Source: Candidatus Melainabacteria bacterium
GTDB lineage: Bacteria; Cyanobacteriota; Vampirovibrionia; Obscuribacterales; Obscuribacteraceae
DNA: 64,000 nt
Assembly (NCBI GenBank): GCA_013288645.1
Contig: JABDBL010000008.1
Coordinates: 25,454 to 89,453, forward strand
Reading direction: 5' to 3'
Shown here: piece after piece, positions 34,156-42,346 of the stretch
How the letters are laid out: every line of letters starts with the position of its first letter
Position numbering within the stretch: position 1 is the stretch's first letter
Program-made: the position numbers and the translations under genes
Notes under the pieces: model-generated
Seen by the model: the letters and a program-made list of their open reading frames with translations, nothing else
Database searches by the model: none
What the model was told of the DNA's origin: nothing

Positions 34156-34929
34156 CTACGCTGCTTCAATTGTACCAAAATTGATGCTGCTCTTTGGCAA
34201 AGCGCTAGTCATAGGAAAGTTTATTTGTTGACTAAAAATATTATGCCAACGCATTTTGGCAATTCCTGATTTGTATAAGTCTTGATGAGTGGCAAGTATA
34301 ATGCTATTGACATTTGGGTGATTCTGCAAGCCTTTTAGGGCCTTTTGTAAATTTTCTTGATGTGCTCGGTCACGCGAAACAATCATTATATGAGTCATGG
34401 CTTTGTTATTTAATTCCTGCTCTAACAAAGGAAAAAAGTCATTGCCTAATAGAGGATGACTAATCAGTCCAATATTGCAATTAATGGTTTGGCAGGTAGC
34501 AGAAATGGTCGCGCTATAGATTTTTTGCTTGTTGTCGTCCGAACATGTTTTCCATTGAAATGTATTTAAATAACCTTCTGTTTTCGCGATAAGAAAGATC
34601 ATTCTTATATTAGCTATTTCTAGGTGATCACGTTGCCAATCATTATTATAAACATCGCCTTCATTTTGGTGGGCACCAGATATAGTGCGCGCTAAAGGGG
34701 CTAGCATATAAACCAAAGGTTTAGTTGGAGTACTCCACCAGGGAAGTCTATTGTCGTGGCGCTGACAAATAAGATAATCGAGATAGAACAATTTTCTTAA
34801 TCGATCTCGTATAAGAACTGGTTTGTCTTCAGAAGCAACAAACCACGATATATGCTTTTCCAACAAGACTTGATGCTCATCTAGCAGTTTGAATATTTGA
34901 TAGTCTCTTTCATTTAGCTGGATAGCCAT
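34156..34929 (-). CDS. Replication-relaxation-like winged-helix protein
   Basis: LNERDYQIFKLLDEHQVLLEKHISWFVAS...IRDRLRKLFYLDYLICQRH...YMLAPLA resembles the replication-relaxation family. Confidence 0.5.
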   Translation of the reverse strand: MAIQLNERDYQIFKLLDEHQVLLEKHISWFVASEDKPVLIRDRLRKLFYLDYLICQRHDNRLPWWSTPTKPLVYMLAPLARTISGAHQNEGDVYNNDWQRDHLEIANIRMIFLIAKTEGYLNTFQWKTCSDDNKQKIYSATISATCQTINCNIGLISHPLLGNDFFPLLEQELNNKAMTHIMIVSRDRAHQENLQKALKGLQNHPNVNSIILATHQDLYKSGIAKMRWHNIFSQQINFPMTSALPKSSINFGTIEAA

Positions 34930-34944
34930 CGCAATGTCCTCAGA

Positions 34945-35619
34945 TTATTTACGTTGCGCGAACTTTTGTACTTCATCATCTTCTATTGAGGCAGGTACTT
35001 TATGGGCTGCTCGAATTTCTCTATCCATGCTTTTAAGACTAAGCATAGTACTCCCAAGTCCTTCTGCGCGTTTTTTAACGCTATCAAGTTCTTCTTGTAA
35101 GTCCTCAATAGTTTTAGCTGGTGGGCGAGGACGAATCAGATCTATATAGATACCGGCTGAGTCCTGGAACCAGTCTGCTAGTAGATCGCGATATTCTTTA
35201 ATGTCCGACATACCAGGCGGAACGGCAAGACTTCTAATTGATTTAGCAGCCAATAAGTAACTCTTGGACATCTTGCTAGCTGTGCTAACCCATTGTTGAA
35301 CACGACTTGCATCTTGCGTAAGTGGTCTTGTGAGAATTACTTTGTCTCTTTCCGAAGGACGATACTGTTCACGCAAATGATCAAATTTTTCAAACCAAAT
35401 TACAGCTGGGTTGGATCCGTTATTGTTTTGAAATGCAGAGTTGTTTGTGCTGACACTGCCTTTTGGATTGGATTGAGTTGCAGAATTTATCGAAAACACA
35501 TCAACTGCTCTAGGTTCAGCCTGAACTCTAGCATTTGTTGTGTAAATAGTAGCGACAAAAAGAATTGACAGTATTTGCCAGTGTTTTTTGTGTTGTTTTT
35601 TTAATTGATTTGATGACAT
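34945..35619 (-). CDS. Secreted protein, unknown function
   Basis: N-terminal hydrophobic signal HWQILSILFVATIYTTNARVQA; 20 bp downstream of the rpoB-like gene on the same strand. Confidence 0.55.
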   Translation of the reverse strand: MSSNQLKKQHKKHWQILSILFVATIYTTNARVQAEPRAVDVFSINSATQSNPKGSVSTNNSAFQNNNGSNPAVIWFEKFDHLREQYRPSERDKVILTRPLTQDASRVQQWVSTASKMSKSYLLAAKSIRSLAVPPGMSDIKEYRDLLADWFQDSAGIYIDLIRPRPPAKTIEDLQEELDSVKKRAEGLGSTMLSLKSMDREIRAAHKVPASIEDDEVQKFAQRK

Positions 35620-35638
35620 ATTTGATTACCTGGAATTT

Positions 35639-38600
35639 TTACTCAATTTCGTCTTTTTCATCAGTGGTAGTAGAGACAGCCTCTTTACTGAATTCATCAA
35701 CAAATGTTTCTATTCGCCTCATTACCGCAGAGGTAGACGCTTTTTCTTCGCCTGATTCGGGGACTATATTAATGAGGTCAGTAGCTAACGACTGCCAATT
35801 ATTGGAAGACGGAAAGCCGTTTTCTAAAACCATTTCTAAATTTTTGTAAGTACTGCTTGCAGAGAAGACGTTTCTTGTTTCAGTATTTATAAATGCAGTG
35901 GTTGTTTCATTCTCATCTACATAAGCTTCGTCGATAAGTTCATTTGGATCTTCAATGTCATCTATAAGAGATGTTTGAAGCAAATCATCGCTTTGCTGAC
36001 GTCTCTTTTGTCCATAGACCAAAGGAGGTAAAATGGGGGTTATTGATGGAATTGTTGCCGGCTCATAATCGCCAGCTGGTATTTCGAGCAACTTTGTGCC
36101 GTCATTTTGCTCAAATTCATGGACATGGGAGACCAAATATTTTTCTGCCAAACTATTTACTTGGGGCGCTGAGCAGATTTTGTCGTCGATCGATTCGAAA
36201 GTATCTACAATTTTTCCTAGTGTGACTTCAAACCCTAAGCCGCGTATTTCGCAGCACAGACCATCAAAAGCGGCAGTTCTGCCACCGGTTGCTATATTTC
36301 TGCCTTGTACTATGTCGGCATATGCCTGATGACGTCCATCAATATCATCTGCTTTAACAGTCATCATTTCTTGCAATACATTTGCTGCGCCATAAGATTG
36401 AATAGCCCAGACTTCCATTTCTCCCATTCGCTGACCACCATGATTGGCTTTCCCACCTACCGGTTGCTGAGTAACGGCAGCATAAGGGCCACCCAGTCCA
36501 GAGCGGGCATTTATCTTGTGCAGGACTAATTGATTGAGTTTGAGCATATATTGTCTTCCGATCAAAACAGGCTGATCGAAAGGTGCACCGGTGCGACCAT
36601 CGTATAAGGTAACTTTTCCGTTATCTCCCAGCCAACGATAACCAGGTAATGATTTCGCTTCCTTGAGTGCGTCCATAACTAGATTGTAGGAAGCATCAGC
36701 ATTTTGTGACTCATCAAATTGATGAATGCGATAATAGCGATTTAAGATGTCGGCATAAAGACCTAGTTGTGTGTCAAAAACTTGTCCCACATTCATACGA
36801 CTTGGCACACCCAAAGGATTTAAAATTATATCGACTGGTGTACCATCAGGTAAAAATGGCATGTCTTCATCAGCTAAAATAAGCGACACTATACCTTTAT
36901 TGCCATGGCGTCCAGCTAACTTATCCCCTGCTTCAATAGGACAAAGGCTAGCTACTAGAATTTCTATTTCGCAAATTACGCCGGGTTTTAATTCAGGCGT
37001 TGTTTCTTGAGTGAATATACGCACATCAATAACTCTTCCCCCAGAGCCGTGCGGAACGCGCAAACTTGAATCTGCCATTTCATCGGCAACTTTACCGAAT
37101 ATCGCTTGTAGAAGCTCTTCTTCAGCATTCAAAGCTTTATGCTCTTTCGGAGATAACTTAGCAACAAGGATGTCGCCTGGTTTGACGAAGCTGCCGATTT
37201 TAGAAATACCACGTTCATCTAAATGTTCTAGGTCTTTGCTTGCTACATTCGGCAGTTCTGGAGTAAGTATTTCTGGACCGCGTAAAGTTTGAAAAACCGA
37301 AATAGAATGTTTTTCTATTTCTATATGGCTAAGCTTTTGATCTTTAACGAGCCCTTTTCTAATAACAATAGCGTCTTCATAATTAAAGCCCTCCCAAGGA
37401 AGAAACGCCACCAACAAGTTTCGTCCTAAAGATAATTCCCCACTATTTATAGCGGCTCCATCAGCTATTACCTGACCAGCATCTACTCTATCGCCCACAG
37501 CAACATTTGGTCTTTGATCTAAAATAGTATTTTGATTAGTGCGATCGTAGCGAACTAGTGGATAGGAACGAGATTCACCACTAGCTTGAGCAATAACTAT
37601 TTCGTTTCCAGTTACTTTTGTCACTGTGCCAGTTCTTCTAGCTATAGCAGAATGACCTGATGAGCGCGCCACCATTTTTTCCATGCCAGTCCCGATACGT
37701 GGACGCTCAGGGCGAATCAAAGGCAGGGTTTGCTTCATCATACCTGCACCCATTAAGGCTCGATTAGCATCATCATGTTCTAAGAAGGGAATAAGGGCTG
37801 AGCCAACTGATATAAAACCTTGCGGAGCAATGGCAATAAAATTAACGTCTTCAGGTTCGACCTGATAGAAATTCTCACCTCTTCTAACTGTCACTGTAGG
37901 ACCAGCTACGCAATTATTTTCTATTCTTGAATCTGGTGGTGCTAGAGTATACAGTTTATCTTCCGCTGGACCTAAATAAACAATCTCATCAGTTAACTGT
38001 CCACCCACGACTTTTCGATAAGGGACTGTCATAAAGCCATCACCGTCTATACGGCAATAGGTAGCGAGATACCCTACGATACCGCAGCTTTTACCTTCTG
38101 AAGATTCAATTAAACACACACGCCCAATTTGACTCGGGTGCACATCTCTCATTTCCACAGGCGCTGAGTTAGCGTCAATACCACCAGGACCAAATGAGGT
38201 AATGCGGCGACGATGAGAAAGTTCTGAAAGAGGATTTTGTTGATCTAAATATTGCACTAATGGATTAGCTGTAAAAAACTTGTTGATAGCATTGACCAAG
38301 GGACGCGAATCTATAAGATCAGTAGCAGTAAAAGTTTCTGATTCATCTTTTAATTCCAATCTTCCTCTAACTGAACGAGCAATTTGCAACATCGCCGGTC
38401 TAACAGACCGCAAGAGCAGTTCGCCTACACCGCGCAGGTGCCGGTTTTCCAAGCTATCCATATTGTCGCACTCGCCCATACTCAAAGGCAGTCCCAATAT
38501 GTATTCAACTGCTGTAAGCAAGTCATTAGCATTTAATTGGAGAGAATCTTCTTCTAAAGATAATTTTTTATTGACACGCCTGCGTCCTAGTTGTCCAAGC

Positions 38601-39379
38601 GAATAACGTCTCTTTTCGGTTATTTCTTTTAAAGCGGCAGTACCACTGCTCGGTCCATTGCTGCCGTCCGGCTTCCATGCTCGTCCAATTAAAGTTAAAG
38701 CTTCAGTTTGGCTAATTTCTTTAAAATCAATTCGATTTATTGTAAGCAACCGACCCAATCTTTTATTTAGGGTAGGCCAATCAATACCCATAGCAGTTAA
38801 TAAGTTAGTGGCCGACACCCAGCTACGTTTTGGTAATTTAATCCGACACTTTGCCCGGCTTGTTTTAGAAGAACTTGTATCTAAATGCAATTCGATTGTT
38901 ACTGGTGCACCTTGTTCCGCTAGAATCAAGGTTTTATAGCTTGATGGTCCAGTGCTTTGATAATAGATGCCTGGCGCTCTTACTAATTGACCAAGGACAA
39001 CCCGTTCTGAACCGTTGATTACAAAGGTGCCTCTGTCTGTAATTACTGGCAAGTCAGCTAAATAACAAGTTGATTTGCGTAATTCATTTGTATTAGTATC
39101 TCTTAACCAGACATCGAGAAAGAGTCGCCTTGAGTAAGTCATATTTGTGCGTCGGGCTGACTCTGCTGAAGCAGGGTAGCCAGAGTCTGCGTGATAGTCT
39201 TCAAAGCGCCAATTTACCTTACCGTCAGGGCTTACGAAAGACATTTCAAAATGTCTACTAAAATCACTGGTAATTGGTGATATTTCGGCAAATAAATTGC
39301 CAATACTTTCTTCTAAGAAGCGTCTATAAGAACGCCTAGGAAATTCCGCTAAATCTGGTGGTTGAAAATAAAAACTCAT
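35639..39379 (-). CDS. DNA-directed RNA polymerase beta subunit-like protein (divergent, orphan RpoB)
   Basis: DRGTFVINGSERVVLGQLVRAPGIYY, LDQQNPLSELSHRRRITSFGPGG, ALIPFLEHDDANRALMG, PWEGFNYEDAIVI, GDKLAGRHGNKGIVS, GTPVDIILNPLGVPSRMNVGQVF, GGQRMGEMEVWAIQSYGAANVLQEMMTVKADDIDGR. No rpoC in the window. Confidence 0.93.
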   Translation of the reverse strand: MSFYFQPPDLAEFPRRSYRRFLEESIGNLFAEISPITSDFSRHFEMSFVSPDGKVNWRFEDYHADSGYPASAESARRTNMTYSRRLFLDVWLRDTNTNELRKSTCYLADLPVITDRGTFVINGSERVVLGQLVRAPGIYYQSTGPSSYKTLILAEQGAPVTIELHLDTSSSKTSRAKCRIKLPKRSWVSATNLLTAMGIDWPTLNKRLGRLLTINRIDFKEISQTEALTLIGRAWKPDGSNGPSSGTAALKEITEKRRYSLGQLGRRRVNKKLSLEEDSLQLNANDLLTAVEYILGLPLSMGECDNMDSLENRHLRGVGELLLRSVRPAMLQIARSVRGRLELKDESETFTATDLIDSRPLVNAINKFFTANPLVQYLDQQNPLSELSHRRRITSFGPGGIDANSAPVEMRDVHPSQIGRVCLIESSEGKSCGIVGYLATYCRIDGDGFMTVPYRKVVGGQLTDEIVYLGPAEDKLYTLAPPDSRIENNCVAGPTVTVRRGENFYQVEPEDVNFIAIAPQGFISVGSALIPFLEHDDANRALMGAGMMKQTLPLIRPERPRIGTGMEKMVARSSGHSAIARRTGTVTKVTGNEIVIAQASGESRSYPLVRYDRTNQNTILDQRPNVAVGDRVDAGQVIADGAAINSGELSLGRNLLVAFLPWEGFNYEDAIVIRKGLVKDQKLSHIEIEKHSISVFQTLRGPEILTPELPNVASKDLEHLDERGISKIGSFVKPGDILVAKLSPKEHKALNAEEELLQAIFGKVADEMADSSLRVPHGSGGRVIDVRIFTQETTPELKPGVICEIEILVASLCPIEAGDKLAGRHGNKGIVSLILADEDMPFLPDGTPVDIILNPLGVPSRMNVGQVFDTQLGLYADILNRYYRIHQFDESQNADASYNLVMDALKEAKSLPGYRWLGDNGKVTLYDGRTGAPFDQPVLIGRQYMLKLNQLVLHKINARSGLGGPYAAVTQQPVGGKANHGGQRMGEMEVWAIQSYGAANVLQEMMTVKADDIDGRHQAYADIVQGRNIATGGRTAAFDGLCCEIRGLGFEVTLGKIVDTFESIDDKICSAPQVNSLAEKYLVSHVHEFEQNDGTKLLEIPAGDYEPATIPSITPILPPLVYGQKRRQQSDDLLQTSLIDDIEDPNELIDEAYVDENETTTAFINTETRNVFSASSTYKNLEMVLENGFPSSNNWQSLATDLINIVPESGEEKASTSAVMRRIETFVDEFSKEAVSTTTDEKDEIE

Positions 39380-41274
39380 TGATTGGCACCAATTGTGGTG
39401 TTTGATTGCGATTTTGAACTACTTATACCAGCAGGTCCTTTGTCGTTAGAAAGAGCTTGTTTATTGATATTTAAGGCTTGTGCTAAATCAGCAGCATAAT
39501 TTTTTTGGTCCGGAGCCAGAGCGCTGGCTATTCTAAATTCTGAAATTGCTTCTCCTATATCACCAGTGCTCATCAAGTCTACCGCTAAGTGATGATGCAT
39601 TTCAGAGTTTTCAAGATTATTGCTTACTAATTCTTTAAGAGTGATAATTGCTTGATCGTAATTGTGTGACGCTTCCAAAGCTTGTACTTTGTCGAGGATT
39701 ATATTTTTTTTCGCGTCGCTCACATTACCAGCATTGTCAAAGTTAGATTGCTGAGCGACAATGTTATTTGTATCCTGCTTTACAGAATTTTGGTTTATAG
39801 CGCTTGCATTTTGGCTGCTTCTCGCAGATGACTCTTGCAATGCTTTGATACGTGCAGCAGCTTCTCTATTGTTTTCTGGATCAATCAAAACGCATGTTAA
39901 GTAAGCTTGATGCGCGCCTTGCAAATCGCCACTTGCTTCTAGACATTCAGCCAAAGAAAACTGATATTGAGCATTTTTAGGCTCAATTCTTACTGCTTGG
40001 CTCATTTCTGTTAAAGCCTCTGGCCTCAAGTTTTGGCCCCATAAAGTGTTTGCAGCTTGCGCGTGTCTTTCTGCTTCCGCATGTTGATATGCGTTCTTTA
40101 AGCTTGCTTGTGCAACCGGTAATGCGGGATTATGAGGATCTAGAGCAACTACCTTCTTATATTCTAATTCTGCAGCGGGTAAGTCTCCGGTTAATTGCAG
40201 GCTTGACGCTAATCCCAAATGATTCTCGGCTATTTGAGGGTTAGCTGCTACTTGCTTGCGCCACAAATCGACTAAAGCAGCTCCAGTTACTTTGTCTTTA
40301 TTATCCAAAATTACTGCTTTGCGCATAAGACTGGCAGCTTGGCTTTGATCTTGCTTAGCTAGAGCAATGAAACCCAGCTGTCTATAAGCAGGAGCATAGT
40401 CAACCTCTTTAACAGTTGCTTGGCTATACCAGCTGGCGGCTGTATCTATCTGACCCAAACGATAAGCATAATCACCCATTTTTACAAAAGTGCGGGCAGA
40501 CTGTTCTAATTGCTCGGCTGCTTGATATTCTATTCCGGCTCCGCCGATGTCGCCTTGGGCTACAAGAGAATCTCCTAAACTCATTCTTTGTTCAGCTGAA
40601 TTTGGGTTAACACCCATTTTTATTAAAGAGTCAATGAGCAGCTTGCCTGCAAGCGCATTATCAGAAGCTGCTACCAGTGATTTTCTGGCGAAATGAGTAG
40701 CACTGGCAAAATCCTTTGCCGCTGATAGTTTTTGTCCATAAGCACAATAAGCTGCTGATAAATTTATACGGAATTGTTTATTCCCAGGATCTAATTGCAC
40801 AGCTTCTTCATGGGCGGCTATGGCTTCGTCAAATTTACCTGCATTTCCTAACTGAACACCCTTATTGTTAGCTGCTAAGGCTTGAATTTGTATTTGCTTG
40901 TCAGCCTTAGCCTGTTCAATTTCTTGCTGCCTGGCAGCTTTCTCTTGGCTGTTTTTACTTTGATTGCTATTTGAATCACCTTGGTTGTTCGAATTTGCTG
41001 CGGCTCTTTTGTAACGGCTGACCGGTGGTTGTATCTCTTGCCCATTCATTGGTTTGAATGAAGAAGAAGAGGAGGAAGAAGAGGAAGAAGAAGAGGAAGA
41101 AGAACGGTGGGGCAAACTTTGCGCAGACACTCGTGTAATGCTTAAGGAGGAGCTCAAACTAAGCATTAAAGGGAGAAATGCAATTATGATTTTTAAATTT
41201 GCTTGGTTCATTGCTTGGGTTTCTTGAGTTTGGACAATTATTTCTTGTTTTATGTTTAAATCGACCCTTGCCAA
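39376..41274 (-). CDS. TPR-repeat protein with a poly-Ser tract
   Basis: Multiple TPRs (NNKGVQLGNAGKFDEAIAAHEEAVQLDPGNKQFRINLSAAYCAYG etc.); overlaps the rpoB-like start by 4 nt. Confidence 0.85.
   Translation of the reverse strand: MARVDLNIKQEIIVQTQETQAMNQANLKIIIAFLPLMLSLSSSLSITRVSAQSLPHRSSSSSSSSSSSSSSSFKPMNGQEIQPPVSRYKRAAANSNNQGDSNSNQSKNSQEKAARQQEIEQAKADKQIQIQALAANNKGVQLGNAGKFDEAIAAHEEAVQLDPGNKQFRINLSAAYCAYGQKLSAAKDFASATHFARKSLVAASDNALAGKLLIDSLIKMGVNPNSAEQRMSLGDSLVAQGDIGGAGIEYQAAEQLEQSARTFVKMGDYAYRLGQIDTAASWYSQATVKEVDYAPAYRQLGFIALAKQDQSQAASLMRKAVILDNKDKVTGAALVDLWRKQVAANPQIAENHLGLASSLQLTGDLPAAELEYKKVVALDPHNPALPVAQASLKNAYQHAEAERHAQAANTLWGQNLRPEALTEMSQAVRIEPKNAQYQFSLAECLEASGDLQGAHQAYLTCVLIDPENNREAAARIKALQESSARSSQNASAINQNSVKQDTNNIVAQQSNFDNAGNVSDAKKNIILDKVQALEASHNYDQAIITLKELVSNNLENSEMHHHLAVDLMSTGDIGEAISEFRIASALAPDQKNYAADLAQALNINKQALSNDKGPAGISSSKSQSNTTIGANQ
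41059..41103 (-). repeat. Trinucleotide low-complexity tract encoding about 15 consecutive Ser
   Basis: tgaagaagaagaggaggaagaagaggaagaagaagaggaagaaga in the TPR gene. Confidence 0.9.
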
Positions 41275-41533
41275 TAGGTTAACGATTAATAGGGGTTGCG
41301 GTCTATTGGGGTTTATCCCATGGCTTTCGTATAAATCCCATAATAATTCGCAAATATGGCACGTTGCTCAACTGGCATGATAAAAGCAATGTTATATAGA
41401 TACTCCGTGTGGAAACATATTTATAGTAGGTTTTGTATCCGGGTAATAGACATCAAATTTATACATACTATGTAGGCAAGGCTTTCAAAATTTGACACTG
41501 TTACAATAGGGAAAAATCAATCAGGCGGGGAAG

Positions 41534-42346
41534 TTGGAATCAGCAGTACCATCAAGTAGTAAACCATCAGCTTTTAGGCCGCGCACTATCATTTGTGAGC
41601 GGCATGAATTAATCAGATTTGGCTTAAAAAGGGTCATTTCTGAAGTATTGGATATTGCTGGCGAGGCGTCTGACGGCATGGCTGCCTATGAAATAGTCAA
41701 GCGGCTCCGCCCTGATTTTGTCATTTTGGACGTAGATTTAGACGTCCTAAATGGGGTGGAAGTGAGCAGACGTATCAACCAAGAATTGCCTGAATGCAAT
41801 ATTCTGGTTTTAACCGACTCGTATCATGCTACTAAGTATCACAATCAACTCTTACGAGCCGGAGCGAGGGGATTTTGTTTAAAAAGCTCAGGTCCTAGGA
41901 CTTTATTTGAGGCTATTGAGCAAGTGACCAGATCACTTCCTTATTGTGACCCTAAAATTACCCAATTAGTAAAGCAAGTCCCGGTTATATCCGCGCCAAA
42001 TACCAATTTAACTGATAGAGAGATTGAAGTTCTGATACGGTTGGATTTGCGCAACAAAGAAATTTCAGAAGAACTGAACATGAAGCTTCGTACTGTAGAA
42101 AAGCATATAGAGTGTATCTTAGCTAAATTGAAAGTATCTACCCGCACTGGTGCTGCTCTGAAAGCTGTGCAATTGGGTTATGTACTCTTACCTAAAATGC
42201 CCACAAGAGATCCTGTCACTGGGGTTTCGCATGAACAAACTTTGGCTGAATTACAAGCAGAATTGTCCATTGCCAATGATCATCTTAAAGCGCTGCTTAA
42301 GCAGAATGATTTGTTGAAACAAGCGTTGAATCAAAAGCCTCAATAA
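41534..42346 (+). CDS. NarL/LuxR-family response regulator with a C-terminal coiled-coil extension (TTG start)
   Basis: REC: PDFVILDVDLDVLNGVEVSRR, VLTDSYHATKY, GARGFCLKSS; HTH: LTDREIEVLIRLDLRNKEISEELNMKLRTVEKHIECILAKLKVSTRTGA. Confidence 0.9.
   Translation: MESAVPSSSKPSAFRPRTIICERHELIRFGLKRVISEVLDIAGEASDGMAAYEIVKRLRPDFVILDVDLDVLNGVEVSRRINQELPECNILVLTDSYHATKYHNQLLRAGARGFCLKSSGPRTLFEAIEQVTRSLPYCDPKITQLVKQVPVISAPNTNLTDREIEVLIRLDLRNKEISEELNMKLRTVEKHIECILAKLKVSTRTGAALKAVQLGYVLLPKMPTRDPVTGVSHEQTLAELQAELSIANDHLKALLKQNDLLKQALNQKPQ

Follow-up and report, generated by a model that had tools for sequence, protein, structure and literature searches.

The rpoB2 locus

The window analysed here, a stretch of 64,000 nucleotides, is part of contig C8; the genome, from the cyanobacterial class that includes Melainabacteria, measures 2.78 Mb and is 72% complete. 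On its minus strand lies an intact and uninterrupted open reading frame with an ATG start (35639..39379), which encodes a divergent second RNA polymerase beta subunit of 1246 aa, hereafter RpoB2. Profile searches match all six Pfam Rpb2 domains, and the NCBIfam RpoB equivalog models score above cut-off; judged by this domain set, rpoB2 is confirmed as an intact RpoB paralog and a member of bacterial RpoB. The motifs quoted in the original prediction are all present in the product, and as it had also stated, neither an rpoC nor a ribosomal gene flanks rpoB2. Residues 1057-1246 form a C-terminal extension (35642..36211, minus strand) with family motifs of the type LEIPAGDYxP, LIDDI and DFPSLSxL. 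The extension had been described as about 180 aa of non-RpoB sequence; it does have its own conserved motifs, but a long tail as such does not set it apart, as a long, acidic C-terminal tail is likewise found on the housekeeping RpoB that this genome encodes.

Over 4 nt (39376-39379), as predicted, rpoB2 overlaps a gene for a TPR protein with a signal-peptide-like N-terminus (39376..41274, minus strand; Pfam TPR), which is syntenic upstream of rpoB2 in relatives. The expected gene for a secreted-type protein is present downstream (34945..35619, minus strand), syntenic and without a match in Pfam or NCBIfam; AlphaFold predicts a helical bundle, for which a search of the PDB gave no fold match. 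The last gene of the operon (34156..34929, minus strand) encodes a protein predicted to be HTH/winged-helix-like; across the family, its first ~77 residues hardly vary. The predicted fold of this N-terminal part is of low confidence, and the protein has no fold match in the PDB. An HTH-type gene thus stands where a winged-helix gene had been proposed, but its description as replication-relaxation-like is not supported, since neither Pfam nor NCBIfam returns a match.

In nearly all relatives with enough flanking sequence, the order is TPR gene, rpoB2, a variable secreted gene, a second secreted-type gene and the gene with the HTH-like N-terminus. The variable secreted gene (277-522 aa in relatives) is absent from the window, where 19 bases (35620-35638) are left after rpoB2. 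A LuxR/NarL-type response regulator (41534..42346, plus strand; Pfam Response_reg and GerE), 80-92% identical across the family, is encoded divergently beside the operon. This is its usual place, and in at least two loci (L052 and L092) no such regulator was found beside the operon.

A second beta subunit beside otherwise single core genes

The same genome carries an ordinary rpoB (C2:25822-28974) directly before rpoC1, with a product 44% identical to RpoB2. We therefore find that rpoB2 is a paralog and not the lineage's only beta subunit, which settles the choice left by the original prediction in favour of a second beta over a lineage-specific sole RpoB. Across the Obscuribacteraceae-type family, rpoC1 is single wherever it was found (45/50 genomes), as a split rpoC1/rpoC2, and rpoA is single in 44 of the 46 genomes where it was found, both exceptions being fragmented MAGs. 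In the window's own genome, the one genome searched for rpoC2, there is one copy. Among the core subunits, only beta is duplicated, and no dedicated beta', alpha or sigma partner of RpoB2 was identified.

Within the family, rpoB2 occurs in 46 of 50 genomes at 66-100% identity. The four genomes without it are 66-83% complete, and it is never missing at a completeness of at least 90%. Ca. Obscuribacter phosphatis EBPR_351 has the two rpoB genes together on a single 3.23-Mb contig, which excludes binning error or contamination. That rpoB2 is the lineage's only RpoB, or a foreign, contaminant or phage gene, might be suspected from the missing rpoC neighbour and from the long stem of its branch; given the ordinary rpoB, the single contig with both genes, the conserved synteny and the failure to find an RpoB2 relative among viral contigs, we regard this reading as practically eliminated, and the last three points rule out a phage or contaminant origin in particular.

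A paralog-specific segment, scanned as a pattern against 84,980 species genomes, matched only in records of this family. The titles of the matched records are mostly those of Obscuribacterales, Obscuribacter or Melainabacteria MAGs, with a few contigs under other or unspecific bin names, and the next-best matches are ordinary rpoB genes, at no more than 56% over that segment. Similarly, rpoB2 was not found in about 290 further genomes of the phylum (best match 46%). A copy does occur in the sister family (genome G052) on a 4.5-kb contig. Its sequence nests inside the Obscuribacteraceae-type family, and the near-identical genome G050 (housekeeping RpoB 99% identical) lacks rpoB2; this single contig, the one occurrence outside the family, is therefore probably a contaminant.

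Paired rpoB matches in other phylum genomes (f13, G113, G126) were considered as paralogs and rejected, each being one gene in two alignment pieces. In G113, G126, G101, G105, G110 and G119, the match to the ordinary rpoB consists of two pieces that share one open frame, which suggests insertions at two different points. In three more relatives of the phylum (G084, G168 and G206), the rpoB match runs through in-frame stops at its end, probably an alignment overrun past the stop.

Origin and constraint

Phylogenetic analysis places the RpoB2 paralogs in one clade, with a support of 100 and a very long stem, in keeping with a second, specialised beta. When the tree is rooted with E. coli, RpoB2 joins the long outgroup branch; since two long branches meet here, we do not trust this placement. 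Without E. coli, the stem of RpoB2 branches off within the class, and the test does not reject RpoB2 as sister to the RpoB of the order itself (AU p 0.376). These trees are compatible with either a duplication in the order or an older one. RpoB2 is ancient and very different from the ordinary beta.

Across the 13 genomes that we compared, RpoB2 has a mean core identity of 78% and ordinary RpoB one of 90%, and the mean dN of RpoB2 is 2.1 times that of ordinary RpoB. The corresponding pN/pS values are 0.20 and 0.11, with synonymous sites near saturation. By these measures RpoB2 is faster-evolving yet clearly constrained, that is, under purifying selection.

Catalytic residues are kept while three other elements are altered

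We aligned 34 RpoB2 paralogs with 47 ordinary RpoBs and compared them residue by residue in E. coli numbering. At 109 of the 418 positions that are invariant in ordinary RpoB, RpoB2 is fixed to another residue. Such changes are rare at 1057-1230 (3/48), the best conserved part, and frequent in the Rif/fork segment (22/61). The Rif-cluster/fork segment of RpoB2 residues 372-437 (E. coli 509-574; 38069..38266, minus strand) carries F514Y, S531T, L533F, P567K, I572V and S574Y (each in 34/34) together with a fixed T563S, and all 34 paralogs likewise show W183P, G544P, V547M, N684G, Q686M and H1237Q.

The residues that contact Mg-B, the NTP and the RNA 3' end are retained in every paralog, and R678, Q688, E813, D814, K1065, K1073 and R1106 are kept in 34/34. 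The same holds for R151, D446 and R451 of the CRE. The flap tip, the binding site for sigma region 4, keeps its hydrophobic core LL-A-[IV]F, and its charged residues are altered. A non-catalytic, beta-like decoy, repressing or buffering RNA polymerase through competition for alpha/beta' or sigma, would fit the loss of H1237 and of several DNA contacts, and the extra conserved C-terminal motifs could serve its docking. Full retention of the catalytic residues, with 1057-1230 as the best conserved part, disfavours such a decoy, which we consider improbable.

Fork loop 2 (residues 401-411; 38147..38179, minus strand) is rewritten: the usual LTRERAGFEVR reads IDANSAPVEMR in the window and IDPNAAPxEMR in the RpoB2 family, with R540 and R542 replaced by Pro/Ala or Ala/Ser across all 34 paralogs. 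R542 contacts the downstream fork, and R542A lowers elemental pausing about two-fold and slows escape from the ops pause by a factor of about 2.5 (PMC6336406, PMC11001881). The second element is the CRE, where the codon of residue 159 (38903..38905, minus strand) takes the position of W183, the CRE +1 contact, and encodes Pro in all paralogs. W183 stacks on the +1 non-template base beside the D446 pocket (PMC5101437; on the role of W183 also PMC11001881), and CRE contacts influence bubble stability, pausing and start-site choice (PMC5101437). The third comprises the Rif pocket and the initiating-nucleotide contact H1237, whose position is Gln in all paralogs (codon of residue 950; 36530..36532, minus strand). 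A His there is the rule in bacterial RpoB without strictly defining it. The 5' end of the nascent RNA sits in the Rif pocket; D516 and H1237 are contacts of NAD+, and mutations in the pocket reduce initiation with NAD+ (PMC5737558). Taken together, the fixed changes at R542, at W183 and in the Rif pocket and H1237, and the retention of the catalytic residues, indicate that fork loop 2, the CRE and the Rif-pocket/initiating-nucleotide elements are altered while core catalysis is spared.

Changes in the Rif pocket also bear on the proposal, made in the original prediction, of an antibiotic-insensitive enzyme, i.e., a backup beta chosen for insensitivity to RNA-polymerase antibiotics of the rifamycin, sorangicin or streptolydigin type. 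F514Y, S531T, L533F, P567K and I572V are fixed in the pocket, fork loop 2 also belongs to the streptolydigin site (table in PMC5101437), and a role of this kind has been proposed for the actinomycete rpoB paralogs (PMC5431353). Of the substitutions cited for insensitivity, S531T, L533F and N684G are indeed fixed in 34/34; P564S and N568S are confined to this genus (2/34) and R687K to this genome (1/34), so that P564 and N568 persist in 32/34 and R687 in 33/34. Moreover, Q513, D516, H526 and R529 are unchanged in all 34 paralogs, and S531T, the one change among the principal rifamycin contacts, is conservative. Fixed changes spread over the whole protein, much wider than the drug site, and the gene, never missing from the most complete genomes, belongs throughout the family to an operon that also encodes secreted proteins and has a dedicated operator. 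Because the main rifamycin contacts are kept, insensitivity is weakly supported; S531T, L533F and the streptolydigin-facing fork loop leave the idea some weight, and on balance we think it unlikely.

A composite promoter/operator shared with other genes

The TPR gene is preceded by a composite promoter/operator, TGGGA-N4-TACGAA-N5-TGGGA-N4-CCCCAATAG (41303..41340, minus strand), present in a single copy in the window. It occurs at 30-32 of ~37 rpoB2 loci, within otherwise poorly alignable DNA, and is followed at constant spacing by a -10-like box, GTTAACCTA (family form GTTAAGCTG; 41275..41283, minus strand). The TPR reading frame begins with a TTG directly after this box (41211-41283). Its true start is likely the ATG at 41211, 63 nt downstream of the TTG and before the signal-peptide-like segment. 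On the plus strand, an extended -10-like element, TGTTACAATA (41499..41508), precedes the response regulator; the exact 10-mer is conserved in 14 of 24 intergenic regions (maximum in shuffles, 3).

In 15 genomes, the operator pattern has 1-4 matches each (reversed-pattern control, 0), and these recur at three types of place: the rpoB2 operon, a gene for a 78-80 aa protein and a gene for a ~350-aa protein. The idea of an operator unique to rpoB2 was dropped, as it is common to at least two other genes. The conserved 78-80 aa protein (MSMF..DEEKLCQVLKAYVEEWGP..) belongs to no known family and has the composite operator ~100 bp upstream of its gene (near 8041-8274 of contig C2 in genome G000; also loci L180, L185, L186-L206 and L218-L221). 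At the two of these loci that were read, the gene follows pgk and a TPR gene. A small-RNA promoter had been considered at this second operator locus; Rfam gave no match there, and a conserved small ORF was found instead. The ~350-aa protein, of unknown family, is encoded beside an apparent DAHP synthase gene (L226, L227, L228, L238).

Among the genomes tested, the 78-80 aa gene was found in this order only. Its order-wide occurrence indicates that the regulon is probably older than rpoB2, which would have joined it later. By virtue of its adjacency, the LuxR-type response regulator is the first candidate to bind the composite operator.

A probable exchangeable beta subunit

That the family carries an ordinary and a divergent beta, the latter in its own conserved operon, suggests that its members are able to assemble the central transcription enzyme in a second form. 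We consider it probable that RpoB2 is an exchangeable second beta which forms a condition-specific and catalytically active alternative core RNA polymerase. RpoB2 would replace the ordinary beta in a complex with the cell's only alpha, beta'1 and beta'2, and the resulting enzyme would remain active, with altered initiation and pausing. It may be made under conditions sensed via the conserved promoter/operator, probably through the neighbouring LuxR-type response regulator, and together with the secreted or envelope proteins that the operon encodes and the products of two or more further genes under the same control, with which it would form a regulon. A stronger version, possible but to be held tentatively, makes RpoB2 the basis of a separate RNA polymerase that has a promoter class of its own and factors dedicated to it (the response regulator and the winged-helix-like protein); two RNA polymerases of one bacterial lineage would then divide the labour lastingly, through the diversification of one core subunit.

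The textbook view gives bacteria a single core RNA polymerase, which sigma factors vary, and the recorded exceptions that we found are near-identical rpoB duplicates of some actinomycetes. Similarly to RpoB2, these stand beside an intact housekeeping rpoB, with the other core genes single, differ from it in the fork/Rif region and are proposed to switch global expression, as RpoB2 may do here. The second copy of Nonomuraea, rpoB(R), reprograms expression and is set apart from its partner by five substitutions and a deletion of six residues, with H526N/S531Y as its signature; duplicated rpoB also occurs in Nocardia, under the name rpoB2 (PMC5431353). In contrast, our RpoB2 is no recent near-identical copy (44% identity, long stem), keeps H526 and has S531T, and its gene is family-wide and in a dedicated operon. 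A duplicated beta is thus known in kind, and RpoB2 is new in depth, distribution and organisation; our search of the open-licence literature turned up no paper describing a second rpoB in this lineage.

Nuclear Pol I, II and III likewise use distinct, anciently diverged second-largest subunits in one cell. There the largest subunit is duplicated too, whereas here only beta is. RpoB2 would allow the idea of two RNA polymerases in one bacterium to be tested directly in vitro, and it offers a natural experiment on fork loop 2, CRE, Rif-pocket and initiating-nucleotide contacts with the catalytic residues intact. Compared with housekeeping bacterial and cyanobacterial RpoB, it is alike in domains, catalytic residues, length class and flap-tip core, and distinct in ~110 otherwise invariant positions, among them changes in fork loop 2, W183 and H1237, and in a gene that lies in its own operon and not beside rpoC. 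We note that the closest solved structures to RpoB2 are those of cyanobacterial RNAP beta (PDB 8syi, 8gzg and 8h3v).
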